Shown: positions 423 to 16,219 of the stretch, one piece after another
Layout of the letters: every line of letters begins with the position of its first letter
Position numbering within the stretch: position 1 is the stretch's first letter
Assembly: GCA_001828855.1 (NCBI GenBank)
Contig: MHZT01000030.1
Span: 82,320 to 146,319, forward strand
Direction of reading: 5' to 3'
Length of the DNA stretch: 64,000 bases
Origin: Rhodobacterales bacterium RIFCSPHIGHO2_02_FULL_62_130
Lineage (GTDB): Bacteria > Pseudomonadota > Alphaproteobacteria > Rhodobacterales > Rhodobacteraceae
Program-made: the position numbers and the translations under genes
Notes under the pieces: model-generated
The model's input: the letters and a program-made list of their open reading frames with translations, nothing else
Told to the model about the DNA's origin: nothing
The model's database searches: none

Positions 423-1403
423 ATGGATCATAGATCAGGCCAAAAGCGCGCAGTCGAATATCTTTACCCGCCGGTCGATCCCTTCGATCAGCGCGTGCTG
501 GACGTGGGCGATGGCCACCGGATTTATGTGGAACAATGCGGGCGGCCGGATGGGGTGCCGGTGATCGTGTTCCACGGCGGTCCGGGGGGCGGGTGCAGCC
601 CTGCGATGCGGCGCTATTTCGATCCGGCGGTGTATCGGGTGATCTTGTTCGATCAGCGCGGCTGCGGGCGGTCGCGGCCACATGCGTCCGTTGAGGCGAA
701 TACGACGTGGCATCTGGTGGCGGATATCGAGGCGATCCGGGTTGCGCTGGGGATTGAGCGGTTCATCGCCTTTGGCGGCAGTTGGGGGGCCACTCTGGCG
801 CTGGTCTATGCGATCACGCACCCTGAACGAGTGCGGCATCTGGTGTTGCGGGGGGTGTTTCTTTCGACGCGGGCGGAGTTGGACTGGTTTTACGGTGGCG
901 GGGCGGGGGCGTTTTATCCGGACCTCTGGGCGCGGTTTGTCGCGGCGGTTTCTGAGGAGGAGCGGGGCGATCTGATTGCGGCCTATCACCGGCGGCTGTT
1001 CAGCGGGAACTTGTTGGAGGAGACCAAGGCGGCGCGGGTCTGGGCGGCTTGGGAAAACGCGCTGGCTTCGGTGCATTCGGCGGGGATGTTCGGCGAAAGC
1101 CCTGCCGATTACGCGCGGGCCTTTGCGCGGCTGGAGAACCACTATTTCGTTAACGCGGGGTTTCTGGAATCGGACGGCTGGATCATGGCGAACAGGGGCC
1201 GGATCGAGCATATTCCGGCGGTGATCGTGCAGGGGCGCTACGATATGATCTGCCCGCCGGTATCGGCGTCAAAGCTGGCTTCGGGCTGGGCCAAGGCGGA
1301 TCTGAGGATCATTCCGATGGCGGGGCATGCGCTTTCGGAGCCGGGGATTTCCGAGGCTTTGGTGGCGGCCATGGATACGCTGCGCGGGGTGAATGGCGGG
1401 TAG
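423..1403 (+). CDS. pip: Proline iminopeptidase (alpha/beta hydrolase)
   Basis: A 326-residue cytosolic serine peptidase that removes N-terminal proline from peptides. The oxyanion-hole motif HGGPGGG is near residue 43, the nucleophile elbow GGSWGA near residue 115, the acid in GRYDMICP and the catalytic histidine in MAGHALSEPG near the C terminus. These are all standard features of the S33 proline iminopeptidase family, which is usually 310-330 residues long. The frame is open further upstream to about 186, but that part lies opposite ubiG and lacks family similarity, so the ATG at 423 (MDHRSGQKRAVEYLYPP) was chosen. The gene is monocistronic and followed by tandem hairpins. Confidence 0.93.
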   Translation: MDHRSGQKRAVEYLYPPVDPFDQRVLDVGDGHRIYVEQCGRPDGVPVIVFHGGPGGGCSPAMRRYFDPAVYRVILFDQRGCGRSRPHASVEANTTWHLVADIEAIRVALGIERFIAFGGSWGATLALVYAITHPERVRHLVLRGVFLSTRAELDWFYGGGAGAFYPDLWARFVAAVSEEERGDLIAAYHRRLFSGNLLEETKAARVWAAWENALASVHSAGMFGESPADYARAFARLENHYFVNAGFLESDGWIMANRGRIEHIPAVIVQGRYDMICPPVSASKLASGWAKADLRIIPMAGHALSEPGISEALVAAMDTLRGVNGG

Positions 1404-1594: not shown

Positions 1595-2242
1595 TCAGCC
1601 GATTTTGTAGCTGGCGACGTGATCGGGCATCGGGGTGCCATCTATCAGGCGCGGGTCGGGGCGGATTTCGCCTGCGGTCAGGGCAAAGGGGATGACGCCG
1701 GCCCAGATCGGCAGGGCGTAGTCTGCCGCTTCATCTTCGGGGTCGTCGGCGCGGATTTTGGCGGACACCTCATCCAGTTTCAGGCCAAGGATCGTGGTGG
1801 CCTTGATCTCCTGATCCAGCATCGGGCGCAGGAGTTTGGTGCGGCCGGGGAACAGGGTTTCGACGAAAGTATCCAGCCGCGCGCGCTTTTCCGCCGGATC
1901 GGTGACGATGAAGGCCTGACCGAAGGCAGTGACAGAGCGGTAGTTGCAGGAATGGTTGAAGGCCGAGCGCGCCATCACCATGCCGTCGAACAGCATCACC
2001 GAGACACAGACCTGATGATTGGCGCTTTTCCGCAGCATCCGGCTGGCGGATGATCCGTGCCAGTAGATCGTGTCGCCTTCACGCCATTGCAGGGTGGGGG
2101 TAGCGTAGGGGGTGCCGTCGATCACATAGGCGACGGTGCAGTTCGGCTGGGCGTCAAGGATGGCGTGGACGGTTTCGGCATCATAGCGGGCGCGGTCGTG
2201 AAAGCGCTTGGCACGGGTGCGGGCGGTAGGTGTGTTGGTCAT
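1595..2242 (-). CDS. Pyridoxamine 5'-phosphate oxidase-family flavin-binding protein
   Basis: A 215-residue protein of the split-barrel FMN-binding class (PNPOx-like, flavin-nucleotide-binding). Recognisable parts are the N-terminal RARYDAETVHAILDAQPNCTVAYV, the strand TIYWHGSSASRM, and the C-terminal ALPIWAGVIPFAL, which matches the family's usual WxGxxP-type region. The start ATG (2242-2240) overlaps the stop of the upstream Tm-1-like gene as ATGA; an upstream ATG-like extension would sit inside that gene and is less likely. The substrate is unknown. Translational coupling suggests it is made together with the Tm-1-like and aldehyde dehydrogenase genes. Confidence 0.82.
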   Translation of the reverse strand: MTNTPTARTRAKRFHDRARYDAETVHAILDAQPNCTVAYVIDGTPYATPTLQWREGDTIYWHGSSASRMLRKSANHQVCVSVMLFDGMVMARSAFNHSCNYRSVTAFGQAFIVTDPAEKRARLDTFVETLFPGRTKLLRPMLDQEIKATTILGLKLDEVSAKIRADDPEDEAADYALPIWAGVIPFALTAGEIRPDPRLIDGTPMPDHVASYKIG

Positions 2243-5020: not shown

Positions 5021-6454
5021 TTACTTGGTCTGACCCATCTTGCCGAAGCGCACAGGGTCGGATTTTGCAAGGTTCGAGGCCATGATATAGCCGATCACCG
5101 CTACAACCAGCACCAGCGCGGGCAGGGCGATGCCCAGCCAGCCCGCAGCGCCCGTCAATGCGCCGAAGTCCCGGAAGATGATGGCGAACAGGATCGCCAT
5201 GACCACACCCGTCAGCACCGGAAACACCTTGGTCGACAGCGGGCCTTCGCCGCGCGCGTCCTTGGCGAAGAAGGCGACTACCGCGAAAGAGGTCAGCGCC
5301 ATCAGGCCCAGAACCGCCAGCGTGCCAACCTGCGTCAGCCAGACGAACAGGTTCAGCACCGGATCAAGCCCGCCCATCACAAAGCCCGTCACCACCACCA
5401 GCGCCAGCACGGTCTGGATCACCGAGCCGATATGCGGGCTTTGGTGTTCGGCATGGGTCACACCGACGCGGGCGGGCAGGATGCCTTCACGGCCAGCGAC
5501 GAATTTGTAGCGTGCCACGGCATTGTGGAAGGCCAGCACGGCGGCGAAAACCGAGGTCATGAACAGGATGCCCATGATCGAGGTCAGTGTGCCACCCAGA
5601 TAGCGGCCACCCAGTTCGAACAGGAACATTGCCGGATCGGGCAGACCTTGCAGTGTGGGCATCAGGTTGTCGACGCCGACACCCATCACCATCAGCCACG
5701 AGGTCAGGATGTAGAACACCCCGATGATGCCGACGGAAAGGTAGGTGGCGCGGGGAACGGTGATCGAGGGATTCTTGGCCTCTTCGGCGTAGATGGTGGT
5801 GGCCTCGAACCCGATGAATGAGGCAAAGCAGAACAGGATGCCGATCGATGGCGTGCCGGATGTGACTTGCGCCCACGAGAACGGCTGCGCGTTCAACCCA
5901 GAGTCGCCGCCCGAAATCAGGATCGCGGCGTCCAGCGCCAGCACGATCAGGAATTCGGCCAACACAAGGCCCATCAGCACCTTGGCCGACAGATCGACTT
6001 GACGGTAACCCAGCACGGCCACCAAGGCGATGGCGATATAGGACCAGACATACCACGGCAGGACCAAGCCAAACTCGGCAAAGGTGCCGGATGCGATGGC
6101 CCCCAGCAGGCCCAGCAGGCCGATCTGCATGGTGTTATAGGCCAGAATGGCGACCAAGGCCGCCGCCCCGCCCATCCGACCCCCAAGGCCGCTGGCGGTG
6201 AAGGCATAGAAGGCGCCAGCGTTGCGGACATGCCGCGCCATGGCGACATAGCCGACCGAGAACAGCAACAGGATCACGGTGACGATCACGAACGCCCCTG
6301 CGATGCCCGCGCCATTGCCGAACAGCATCGAGGGCGGGATACCGCCGCCCGCCGCTGTCAAAGGGGCCGCCGCCGACACCACCATGAAGGTGATGGCGCT
6401 GGTGCCTAACGAGTTTCCACGCAACTGGTTTGCGCCTTTGGTTGGTTCAGCCAT
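5021..6454 (-). CDS. APC-family amino acid/polyamine permease
   Basis: A 477-residue inner-membrane permease with about 12 hydrophobic segments. It starts with a polar stretch and LGTSAITFMVVSAAAPLTA, followed by the glycine-rich first helix typical of the amino acid-polyamine-organocation superfamily; GFEATTIYAEEAKNP around residue 220 matches the conserved loop of that family. It ends with a short basic tail. It is the first gene of the minus-strand cluster with the aldehyde dehydrogenase and faces the IclR regulator, so it probably imports the cluster's amine or amino acid. A putrescine permease (PuuP-like) is possible but not shown. Confidence 0.86.
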   Translation of the reverse strand: MAEPTKGANQLRGNSLGTSAITFMVVSAAAPLTAAGGGIPPSMLFGNGAGIAGAFVIVTVILLLFSVGYVAMARHVRNAGAFYAFTASGLGGRMGGAAALVAILAYNTMQIGLLGLLGAIASGTFAEFGLVLPWYVWSYIAIALVAVLGYRQVDLSAKVLMGLVLAEFLIVLALDAAILISGGDSGLNAQPFSWAQVTSGTPSIGILFCFASFIGFEATTIYAEEAKNPSITVPRATYLSVGIIGVFYILTSWLMVMGVGVDNLMPTLQGLPDPAMFLFELGGRYLGGTLTSIMGILFMTSVFAAVLAFHNAVARYKFVAGREGILPARVGVTHAEHQSPHIGSVIQTVLALVVVTGFVMGGLDPVLNLFVWLTQVGTLAVLGLMALTSFAVVAFFAKDARGEGPLSTKVFPVLTGVVMAILFAIIFRDFGALTGAAGWLGIALPALVLVVAVIGYIMASNLAKSDPVRFGKMGQTK

Positions 6455-13439: not shown

Positions 13440-13482
13440 ATGGCTTGAAATGCGGAATTTTGTGCATAGGTTCTGCACGCAG

Positions 13483-13552
13483 ACCGGGCCCCTCTGACGG
13501 CAATCGTGCCGTGATGTCGGACTGCATCGAGCGCGCTCGGTGTCGGCCCGGT
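13483..13552 (+). ncRNA. Candidate structured leader (three-way junction) of terC
   Basis: The 5' region of terC can fold as an outer 8-bp stem ACCGGGCC/GGCCCGGT (13483-13490 with 13545-13552) that encloses two hairpins: ACGGCA-ATCG-TGCCGT (13497-13512) and CATCGAG-CGCG-CTCGGTG (13525-13542). The junction strands are CCTCTG and about 12 nt with GATGTCGGACTG. The terC ATG is 51 nt further on. TerC-family genes in other bacteria can carry the manganese-sensing yybP-ykoY riboswitch, but its conserved core is not recognisable here. The role in regulation is inferred from position and structure only. Confidence 0.4.
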
Positions 13553-15437: not shown

Positions 15438-15540
15438 TGGTGCGGACGACCGGGATTGAACCGGCACGGGGCATCTGAGTTTGAGCGCTCGCCCCCGTGG
15501 CTTCCAAGGCCACTGTGTCTACCTATTTCACCACGTCCGC
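15438..15540 (-). tRNA. Class II tRNA, leucine-type body with UGG anticodon and oversized variable region
   Basis: The 103-nt gene has a perfect acceptor stem GCGGACG/CGTCCGC, discriminator A and an encoded CCA (15440-15438). The D arm GGTGAAATAGGTAGACAC is of the leucine-tRNA type. The anticodon arm is GTGGC-CTTGGAA-GCCAC, giving anticodon TGG (15506-15504), which would read proline CCA. The T arm is GCCGG-TTCAATC-CCGGT. The variable region (15466-15496) is 31 nt: a GGGGC/GCCCC stem with an extra GAG/CTC pairing inside. Leucine tRNAs usually have about 13-16 nt there, and proline tRNAs are class I. It could be a functional odd tRNA, a leucine tRNA with a mutated anticodon, or a decaying copy. 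Confidence 0.75.
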
Positions 15541-15701: not shown

Positions 15702-16190
15702 TCACGATGAAGTCTCTGATGATGTTAGATACCAGAGGCTATTTTGTTCTTTATAGCGATTATCTTCGCGGCCTTTACGCAGTTCGCCGCGTATGGTTGA
15801 TAACGCTATCATTTTTTCCATGTCGCTTTGCGCTGACATCACAATATCATCTAGGCTCACGCCTTCTGGGTGATCTGCCAAGACTCTATTTACAAAGTTA
15901 CGCGGAAGCCCCTTCGGTGCTCGCTTTCTGTCACGGTTTTCGGCGTGAACACTTGGGGCGCTAAAGCGCTGCTCTACAACATTGGATGAAGTCTGCGCGA
16001 TGTTGACAGCGAATTCTTGGCTGACGACAGTTGCAGCTTCCGGCCGGTCCATTTGTAAAAGCGCGCGAATTTCTGCTTTTGCATCGGTATGGCCCTGAGC
16101 ATAAGCTTCGGAGTGAGCCTTGGAAATAGCAGCATCCAAGAGTGGCCGGATTGCCGACAGTATCTCGCTGACAATAGAATCGCTGCTCAT
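15702..16190 (-). CDS. Orphan protein with a possible C-terminal winged helix
   Basis: A 162-residue soluble protein I do not recognise. Residues 1-50 are helical and charged (SEILSAIRPLLDAAISKAHSEAYAQG), the middle is low-complexity, and residues about 100-158 (LPRNFVNRVLADHPEGVSLDDIV... IRGELRKGRED... YKEQNSLWYLT) read like a small winged-helix domain with a final beta hairpin. The start ATG at 16190 follows GGGGGG; a TTG five codons earlier is possible. Codon use and base composition are AT-richer than in neighbours, the gene has its own strong promoter and terminator, and it sits next to a tRNA gene, which together suggest acquisition by transfer. Confidence 0.7.
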   Translation of the reverse strand: MSSDSIVSEILSAIRPLLDAAISKAHSEAYAQGHTDAKAEIRALLQMDRPEAATVVSQEFAVNIAQTSSNVVEQRFSAPSVHAENRDRKRAPKGLPRNFVNRVLADHPEGVSLDDIVMSAQSDMEKMIALSTIRGELRKGREDNRYKEQNSLWYLTSSETSS

Positions 16191-16219
16191 CGAAATACCC
16201 CCCAAATGCTGTCATGCGA

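Follow-up and report, generated by a model that had tools for sequence, protein, structure and literature searches.

A leucine-type tRNA gene with a proline anticodon belongs to a family of passengers of IS1595 transposons

The window analysed here, a 64,000-nucleotide stretch of a Rhodobacterales genome, encodes on its minus strand a tRNA gene (15438..15540) and, upstream of it on the same strand, an orphan gene (15702..16205) for a protein of 167 amino acids. The tRNA has the anatomy of a leucine-type class II molecule and carries the anticodon UGG, that of proline. It scores 53.1 bits against the Rfam covariance model RF00005, well above the gathering score of 29, and the parts described in an initial annotation (a leucine-type body with a proline anticodon, a 31-nt variable region, a perfect acceptor stem, discriminator A, an encoded CCA and a GTG/CAC D stem) are all confirmed when the gene is read from 15540 to 15438. 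All seven acceptor pairs form and the 3′ end is A73 followed by CCA, while the T stem is paired at 5/5 positions, one of them G-U. The five-base-pair anticodon stem GTGGC/GCCAC frames the loop CTTGGAA (15502..15508, minus strand), which sets the anticodon as UGG, followed by A37. In the variable region (15466..15496, minus strand), an outer stem GGGGC/GCCCC encloses an inner stem GAG/CTC. A minimum-energy fold did not yield the full cloverleaf and was no better than shuffled sequences (z -1.12), as can occur for tRNAs; the structural support comes from the covariance model and the family alignment described below. The A at position 37 needs no special cause, because the tRNA-Leu(UAA) of the same genome has the loop CTTAAAA and therefore also A37; two anticodon changes in CTTAAAA would give CTTGGAA.

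The identity elements of the window tRNA are those of leucine. In the excerpted text of PMC9976931, the determinants listed for bacterial leucyl-tRNA synthetase (LeuRS) are A73, A15-U48, G18G19, A20a and U8:A14, the anticodon not being listed, and those for bacterial prolyl-tRNA synthetase (ProRS) are G72, G15:C48 and the anticodon. Every LeuRS determinant given there is present in the window tRNA, together with a long variable arm, and only a leucine anticodon is missing, so we class the gene as having a leucine-type body rather than as a tRNA-Leu. As a tRNA-Pro it would be anomalous: G72 and G15:C48 are replaced by C72 and A15-U48, and a 31-nt arm stands where a class I loop would be. These features support the earlier prediction of a LeuRS substrate, and we infer that LeuRS would charge the tRNA and that leucine would enter at CCA codons. 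Tallies of the same features among the relatives are approximate, with the acceptor start misplaced in some rows (L072, L085 and L091 among them); the row for the window is right.

The host genome (4.97 Mb in 53 contigs, with 44 tRNA matches) holds the ordinary leucine (CAA, UAA, UAG, CAG and GAG) and proline (CGG, UGG and GGG) tRNAs, so that the window gene is an additional one. BLAST found it at full length in one of 61 genomes, its own, as a single copy, and a stricter pattern matched in one of 394 genomes of the family; plasmid and phage DNA searched with the tRNA gave no match. The neighbouring orphan gene, annotated earlier as AT-rich, is so in relative terms, with a GC content of 49.6% compared with 62.0% for the window. 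Its product is predicted to consist of N-terminal helices and a C-terminal winged-helix-like domain, residues 101–160 of the AF2 model reaching a pLDDT of 93–96. No Pfam match was found at E values up to 1, and a fold search of the model against the PDB gave nothing at E ≤ 0.001, the top matches being mostly winged-helix proteins. Homologues of this gene lie next to the tRNA in two other loci, L066 and L077; a gene in L072 matches weakly and itself matches one in L074. Three further homologues (L400–L402) had no tRNA found nearby, and plasmids searched with the orphan gene gave no match. Elsewhere in the window, a terC RNA motif (RF03067, 58.7 bits) lies at 13476-13529, just 5′ of an open reading frame whose product resembles a TerC-type membrane protein.

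A search of 84,980 bacterial and archaeal genomes, plus viral contigs, with a pattern combining a leucine body with UGG returned 54 stretches (40 genomic and 14 viral). A cloverleaf with at least six acceptor, four anticodon and four T pairs formed in 42 of them, 29 genomic and 13 viral (five of the latter nearly identical), or 43 with the window. The folding loci come from taxa that include Alphaproteobacteria (as genera), Gammaproteobacteria, Acidobacteria, Planctomycetes, Chloroflexi and Myxococcales; among the relatives compared, the nearest to the window tRNA are those of L077 (95/101 aligned bases) and L066 (87/99). Variable regions of 27-35 nt occur in 14 of the 42. In an alignment of the window tRNA with 13 long-armed relatives (14 sequences in all, 13 UGG and one AGG), 97.1% of 350 cells are paired, 16 of 25 pairs show changes on both sides, and double-sided changes fill 81 cells compared with 23.9 in shuffles (0/500); the outer stem of the variable arm is paired in 87.1% of its cells. 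These tRNAs are maintained, with pairs kept through double-sided changes. The same variable arm recurs among relatives, as the initial annotation had asked, and its caveat that a normal leucine tRNA might have decayed into this gene is disfavoured, both by this conservation and because BLAST of the 61 genomes gave no relative of full length that has a leucine anticodon. The long arm alone does not mark the family, because tRNAs with leucine anticodons and arms of 31-34 nt occur in three viral contigs: L301 (TAA), L310 (TAA) and L345 (TAG).

The neighbourhoods of these tRNAs have in common a gene of about 320 amino acids that encodes an IS1595-family transposase (PF12762 + PF12760). A match to it was found in the examined DNA around 21 of the 42 folding tRNAs (three of them only fragments) and around none of 112 viral contrast loci that carry the long-arm pattern with any anticodon, not all of which fold as tRNAs. 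Elements of the IS1595 family (ISXO2-like) are known by their transposase domains, inverted repeats, 8-bp duplications and passenger genes, and the elements described here share all of these traits; they differ from known ones in that the passenger is an anticodon-swapped tRNA. The arrangement is exemplified by L077 (Roseobacter sp. HKCCD6576-2), in which 28-nt inverted repeats, with the duplication AAAGAAAA on both sides, enclose a homologue of the orphan gene, the tRNA and the transposase. When 21 tRNA-bearing loci were searched for repeats and duplications, the tRNA proved to lie within an element flanked by a perfect 8-bp duplication in 15, the ends of the other six not being resolved. Thirteen of these elements carry a leucine-type UGG tRNA, one a serine-type UGG tRNA (L245) and one a leucine-type GGA tRNA (L174, in which the repeats match at only 14/20 positions). 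A further complete element, L264, has a UGC tRNA inside.

As replication, 20 loci from Planctomycetota and Chloroflexota were picked by transposase similarity alone. Ends could be resolved in 16 (one, L456, weakly), and seven of the 20 have a tRNA inside the element: leucine-type UGG in L442, L449 and, with C33, in L441; leucine-type UGC in L446 and L448; leucine-type UUA in L443; and a class I UGC tRNA of unassigned body in L459. In total, 23 complete IS1595 elements with perfect 8-bp duplications contain a tRNA between their repeats, with anticodons UGG (17, of which 16 are leucine-type), UGC (4), UUA (1) and GGA (1). The window gene is a member of a family of mostly class II, anticodon-swapped tRNAs that are passengers of IS1595 transposons in several phyla. 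In one further locus, L184, a leucine-type AGG tRNA with a weak anticodon stem lies beside a transposase in an element of unresolved ends. Many elements lack a tRNA. None was found in nine of the 16 replication elements with resolved ends or in L403, a sister of the L077 element that is borne by a plasmid, and none was detected near most of the other IS1595 transposases searched.

The patchy occurrence, with a single match among 394 family genomes and a sister of the L077 element that has no tRNA, speaks for a passenger that hitch-hikes neutrally or for a mutant tRNA that is decaying. We disfavour that account and give it a low probability, since 97.1% of cells are paired with double-sided changes across phyla and 23 complete elements carry the tRNA. 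The order and orientation of the tRNA relative to the transposase also vary between elements, which, with the nine resolved elements in which none was found, could fit a non-decoding role in the element (in transcript processing, insulation or structure) to which the anticodon is incidental. Against this improbable alternative, a few anticodon swaps recur, UGG most often, on different bodies, and the loop is kept except for C33 in L441; moreover, transposase codon use follows the anticodon, as described below.

Around the window tRNA itself there is no transposase, terminal repeat or target duplication of the kind seen in the complete elements. No convincing inverted repeats were found, the window genome contains no transposase of this group (A1-like) at E ≤ 1e-30, and no empty site is defined, because the tRNA's neighbouring gene is only 36–46% alike in members of the genus. 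The earlier suggestion that the gene was imported is nevertheless supported and sharpened: its relatives are IS1595-family passengers, and the orphan homologue accompanies the tRNA in L066 and L077. We read the window tRNA and its winged-helix partner gene as a passenger pair that was left behind or adopted. Passenger proteins that combine a helical N terminus with a small C-terminal domain also seem to accompany the tRNA in L061, L065, L068, L070, L079, L089 and L245; they are very divergent and their likeness was judged by eye. Second tRNA-like genes were noted between the repeats of L459 (2614-2688, minus strand; four-base anticodon according to ARAGORN) and L091 (2970-3040, plus strand; Cys GCA according to ARAGORN).

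Detection of these tRNAs depends on the program. ARAGORN missed the window gene when run on its locus and, going by the anticodon alone, labels most relatives with shorter arms as proline tRNAs, a warning for annotation. Among the 23 element tRNAs, 19 were confirmed, 18 by ARAGORN with the same anticodon and that of L449 by cmscan; those of L056, L077, L104 and L442 come from our own fold check only. Even at E values up to 5, cmscan left the tRNAs of L264/L415, L442 and L448 unreported, whereas ARAGORN reported those of L415 and L448 and not that of L442. For L066, ARAGORN gave the anticodon AGC and our fold the loop CTTGGAA (UGG). Our first custom finder missed tRNAs found by cmscan, and a looser version still missed that of L441, found by cmscan, and the second tRNA of L459. 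When 40 transposase loci were rechecked with cmscan, one (L249) held a tRNA that the custom finder had missed; as the remaining loci were only partly rechecked, some taken as tRNA-less may carry an unseen tRNA.

We then compared codon placement in the transposases with the anticodon carried, using the share of tRNA-less homologues that have the standard amino acid at positions of the cognate codon and of its synonyms, with permutation within sequences. A set of 17 carriers was limited to near-complete transposase genes (leaving out L059, L087, L094, L098 and L234). Twelve of these, with L441, L442 and L449, make up a set of 15 UGG carriers; L052, L065, L070, L091 and L076 were dropped from the 17 as near relatives of others, and L440, whose UGG tRNA lies 2 kb away and whose ends are not resolved, was left out. 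In the 15 UGG carriers, CCA stands where homologues seldom have proline (0.128 compared with 0.344 at synonyms; p 1/5000; with all 17 carriers, 0.128 compared with 0.328), whereas GCA shows no significant difference (0.313 compared with 0.301). The tests are in part post hoc, the CCA signal having first emerged on inspection, and the relatives are not independent. The three UGC carriers, which are 56-64% identical to each other, show the reciprocal pattern, with GCA displaced (0.075 compared with 0.322; 0/5000) and CCA not significantly so (0.19 compared with 0.317; 5 codons, 1353/5000). Neither codon is displaced in 150 transposases taken as tRNA-less (CCA 0.351 compared with 0.409, 233/500; GCA 0.336 compared with 0.322). 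L446 and L448, which were new data when tested, gave 0.031 compared with 0.302 for GCA (0/5000); the first UGG replicate, L442 and L449, gave 0.109 compared with 0.288 for CCA and was not significant (p 0.115). At GCA positions of the UGC carriers, homologues more often have hydrophobic residues (0.428 compared with 0.246; in tRNA-less transposases, 0.178 compared with 0.178).

Several observations temper the CCA signal. Random sets of 12 tRNA-less transposases gave a CCA difference as large as -0.20 in 12 of 193 draws. CGA, for which there is no matching tRNA, is similarly displaced in UGG carriers, and L459, with its class I body and UGC anticodon, shows no codon effect. Apart from one C-terminal column, CCA positions are not leucine-like (0.021 compared with 0.026), and CCA also stands at conserved prolines (columns 56 of L062, 52 of L065, 138 of L091, 214 of L068 and 52 of L449) and at an invariant proline in the orphan gene of L072. 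Strict reassignment of CCA to leucine in the transposases is therefore rejected as a general rule, and decoding would be at most ambiguous. L440, L442 and L419 contain in-frame stops that do not match their tRNA. In L443, the leucine-type UUA tRNA (5295-5382, minus strand), which lies in a complete IS1595 element, would read the stop codon UAA; stop-codon recoding was considered there and set aside, the transposase frame having no internal TAA and ending in TAA, reading on from which adds 51 codons. With these qualifications, the codon evidence suggests that the transposons use the tRNAs in decoding their own transposase.

The C-terminal column is the most conspicuous single position, with CCA in 12 of the 17 carriers. 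In a core of 15, it is the best conserved among 103 four-fold columns, even though the rarest third base is A. In 142 other transposases the same column most commonly has leucine (42, using all six leucine codons), followed by threonine (31), proline (19, of which 18 are CCT and one CCA) and others. In L441, CCA was seen at this column before the UGG tRNA was found, and L244, in which no tRNA was found, also has CCA there, its contig ending 324 bases further on. The AGG carrier L184 has only two CCT codons, which fall at the C-terminal column and at another CCA column. The five exceptions among the 17 have GCG, GCG, ATT, CTG and CCT (the last in L077), and the new carriers L442 and L449 have CAT and TAT. 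In 83 other transposases, picked by residue, the third base at this column (alignment column 522) is T in 76 and the residue varies (Thr, Pro, Ile, Ala, Ser and Val), so that a nucleotide-level constraint exists here, close to where the transposase gene ends; matching tRNA-like hairpins numbered three in those 83, with no excess. As a stand-alone proof, the C-terminal CCA is weakened by this T-ending constraint and by the seven carriers without it.

The explanation that we favour, at somewhat better than an even chance, is of an IS1595 passenger tRNA family that provides a LeuRS-charged second reading of a codon, the window pair having been left behind or adopted. The host LeuRS, blind to the anticodon, would charge the passenger tRNA with leucine, and the tRNA would read CCA, and perhaps other CCN codons, as leucine in competition with the host tRNA-Pro(UGG). 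In the transposons this would amount to a private and probably inefficient second reading of the codon matching the element's tRNA (CCA for UGG, GCA for UGC), the codon being placed where the standard amino acid is unneeded and sometimes where leucine is expected. Such ambiguous reading would limit active transposase, which other insertion sequences limit by programmed frameshifting. The anatomy of the tRNA is firm; the recoding claim itself, which is drawn from sequence comparison, we hold to be about evenly balanced. A stronger form, to which we would give a little less than an even chance, is that this transposon group has a private codon (CCA, GCA, perhaps UAA or UCC/UCU) that is read as leucine or serine, that active transposase depends on the element's own tRNA and that codon choice differs by element.

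Alternatively, the passenger tRNA might act on the host, placing leucine at CCA codons proteome-wide or reading CCA when tRNA-Pro(UGG) is limiting or destroyed, so as to confer an advantage or make loss of the element costly, with the winged-helix gene as regulator. The tRNA and an orphan homologue do stand without a transposase in the examined DNA of the window, L066, L072 and L074 (1,020 bases in the last), and the window genome has no such transposase at the threshold given above. CCA is moreover rare in the host, with 41 of 607 proline codons, or 3.2 per 1000 codons, in 32 long open reading frames of the window, which would make the load tolerable. We nonetheless consider this reading unlikely, because it is the transposases that show the codon displacement, in step with the anticodon carried. 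Under the favoured explanation, a second reading of the element's own codon, the window host would experience low-level proline-to-leucine changes at a rare codon.

The proposed system resembles phage suppressor tRNAs, which recode stop codons, in that a mobile element supplies a tRNA altering the reading of its own genes; it differs in that mostly sense codons (CCA and GCA) would be read, one element carrying UUA. An extra bacterial tRNA in which body and anticodon disagree is also known from Streptomyces, where, in the excerpted text of PMC11415595, tRNA-ProX has a proline body, alanine, asparagine or threonine anticodons and a partner synthetase, ProRSx, and leads to mistranslation when expressed in Escherichia coli. 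Here, by contrast, the body is of leucine type (once serine), the anticodons are those of proline, alanine, serine or stop, the gene is borne by a transposon, and no synthetase was found in the elements read. Allo-tRNAs likewise are class II molecules with non-cognate anticodons; those described in the excerpt of PMC7609411 have 8/4 or 9/3 acceptor–T arms, whereas the window tRNA has a normal 7/5 body with a leucine-type D arm. High-copy threonine-like UGA tRNAs in the fungus Serpula lacrymans have features indicative of pseudogenes, according to the excerpt of the tRNAscan-SE 2.0 paper (PMC8450103). A full-text literature search, in which subscription papers were mostly not covered, returned no tRNA gene inside an IS1595 element and no tRNA-Leu(UGG) passenger. 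If the explanation is true, a small bacterial transposon that naturally recodes a sense codon would represent a new form of self-control for a mobile element, and the family would provide a new reservoir of tRNAs that have swapped anticodons and seem functional. Because each element brings its own candidate target gene, it becomes directly testable whether a natural tRNA whose body and anticodon disagree serves a purpose.

Viral contigs hold further tRNAs of related form. Leucine bodies with AGG, CGG or GGG and serine bodies with UGG were found there in ten stretches, none with an IS1595 match. The contig L376 encodes (523-624, plus strand) a tRNA with the same two-stem long arm and the anticodon AGG, with no IS1595 match in the examined DNA, and L109 a leucine-type UUA tRNA (2145-2232, minus strand) about 0.8 kb from an IS1595 transposase. 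Other viral contigs (L273, L277, L282 and others) carry a class II tRNA whose D arm is leucine-like and whose variable arm measures 28-34 nt, with discriminator G and the anticodon GTT (Asn). This type accounts for 32 of the long-arm viral cloverleaves, and its combination of an asparagine-type acceptor end with a class II body looks unusual.
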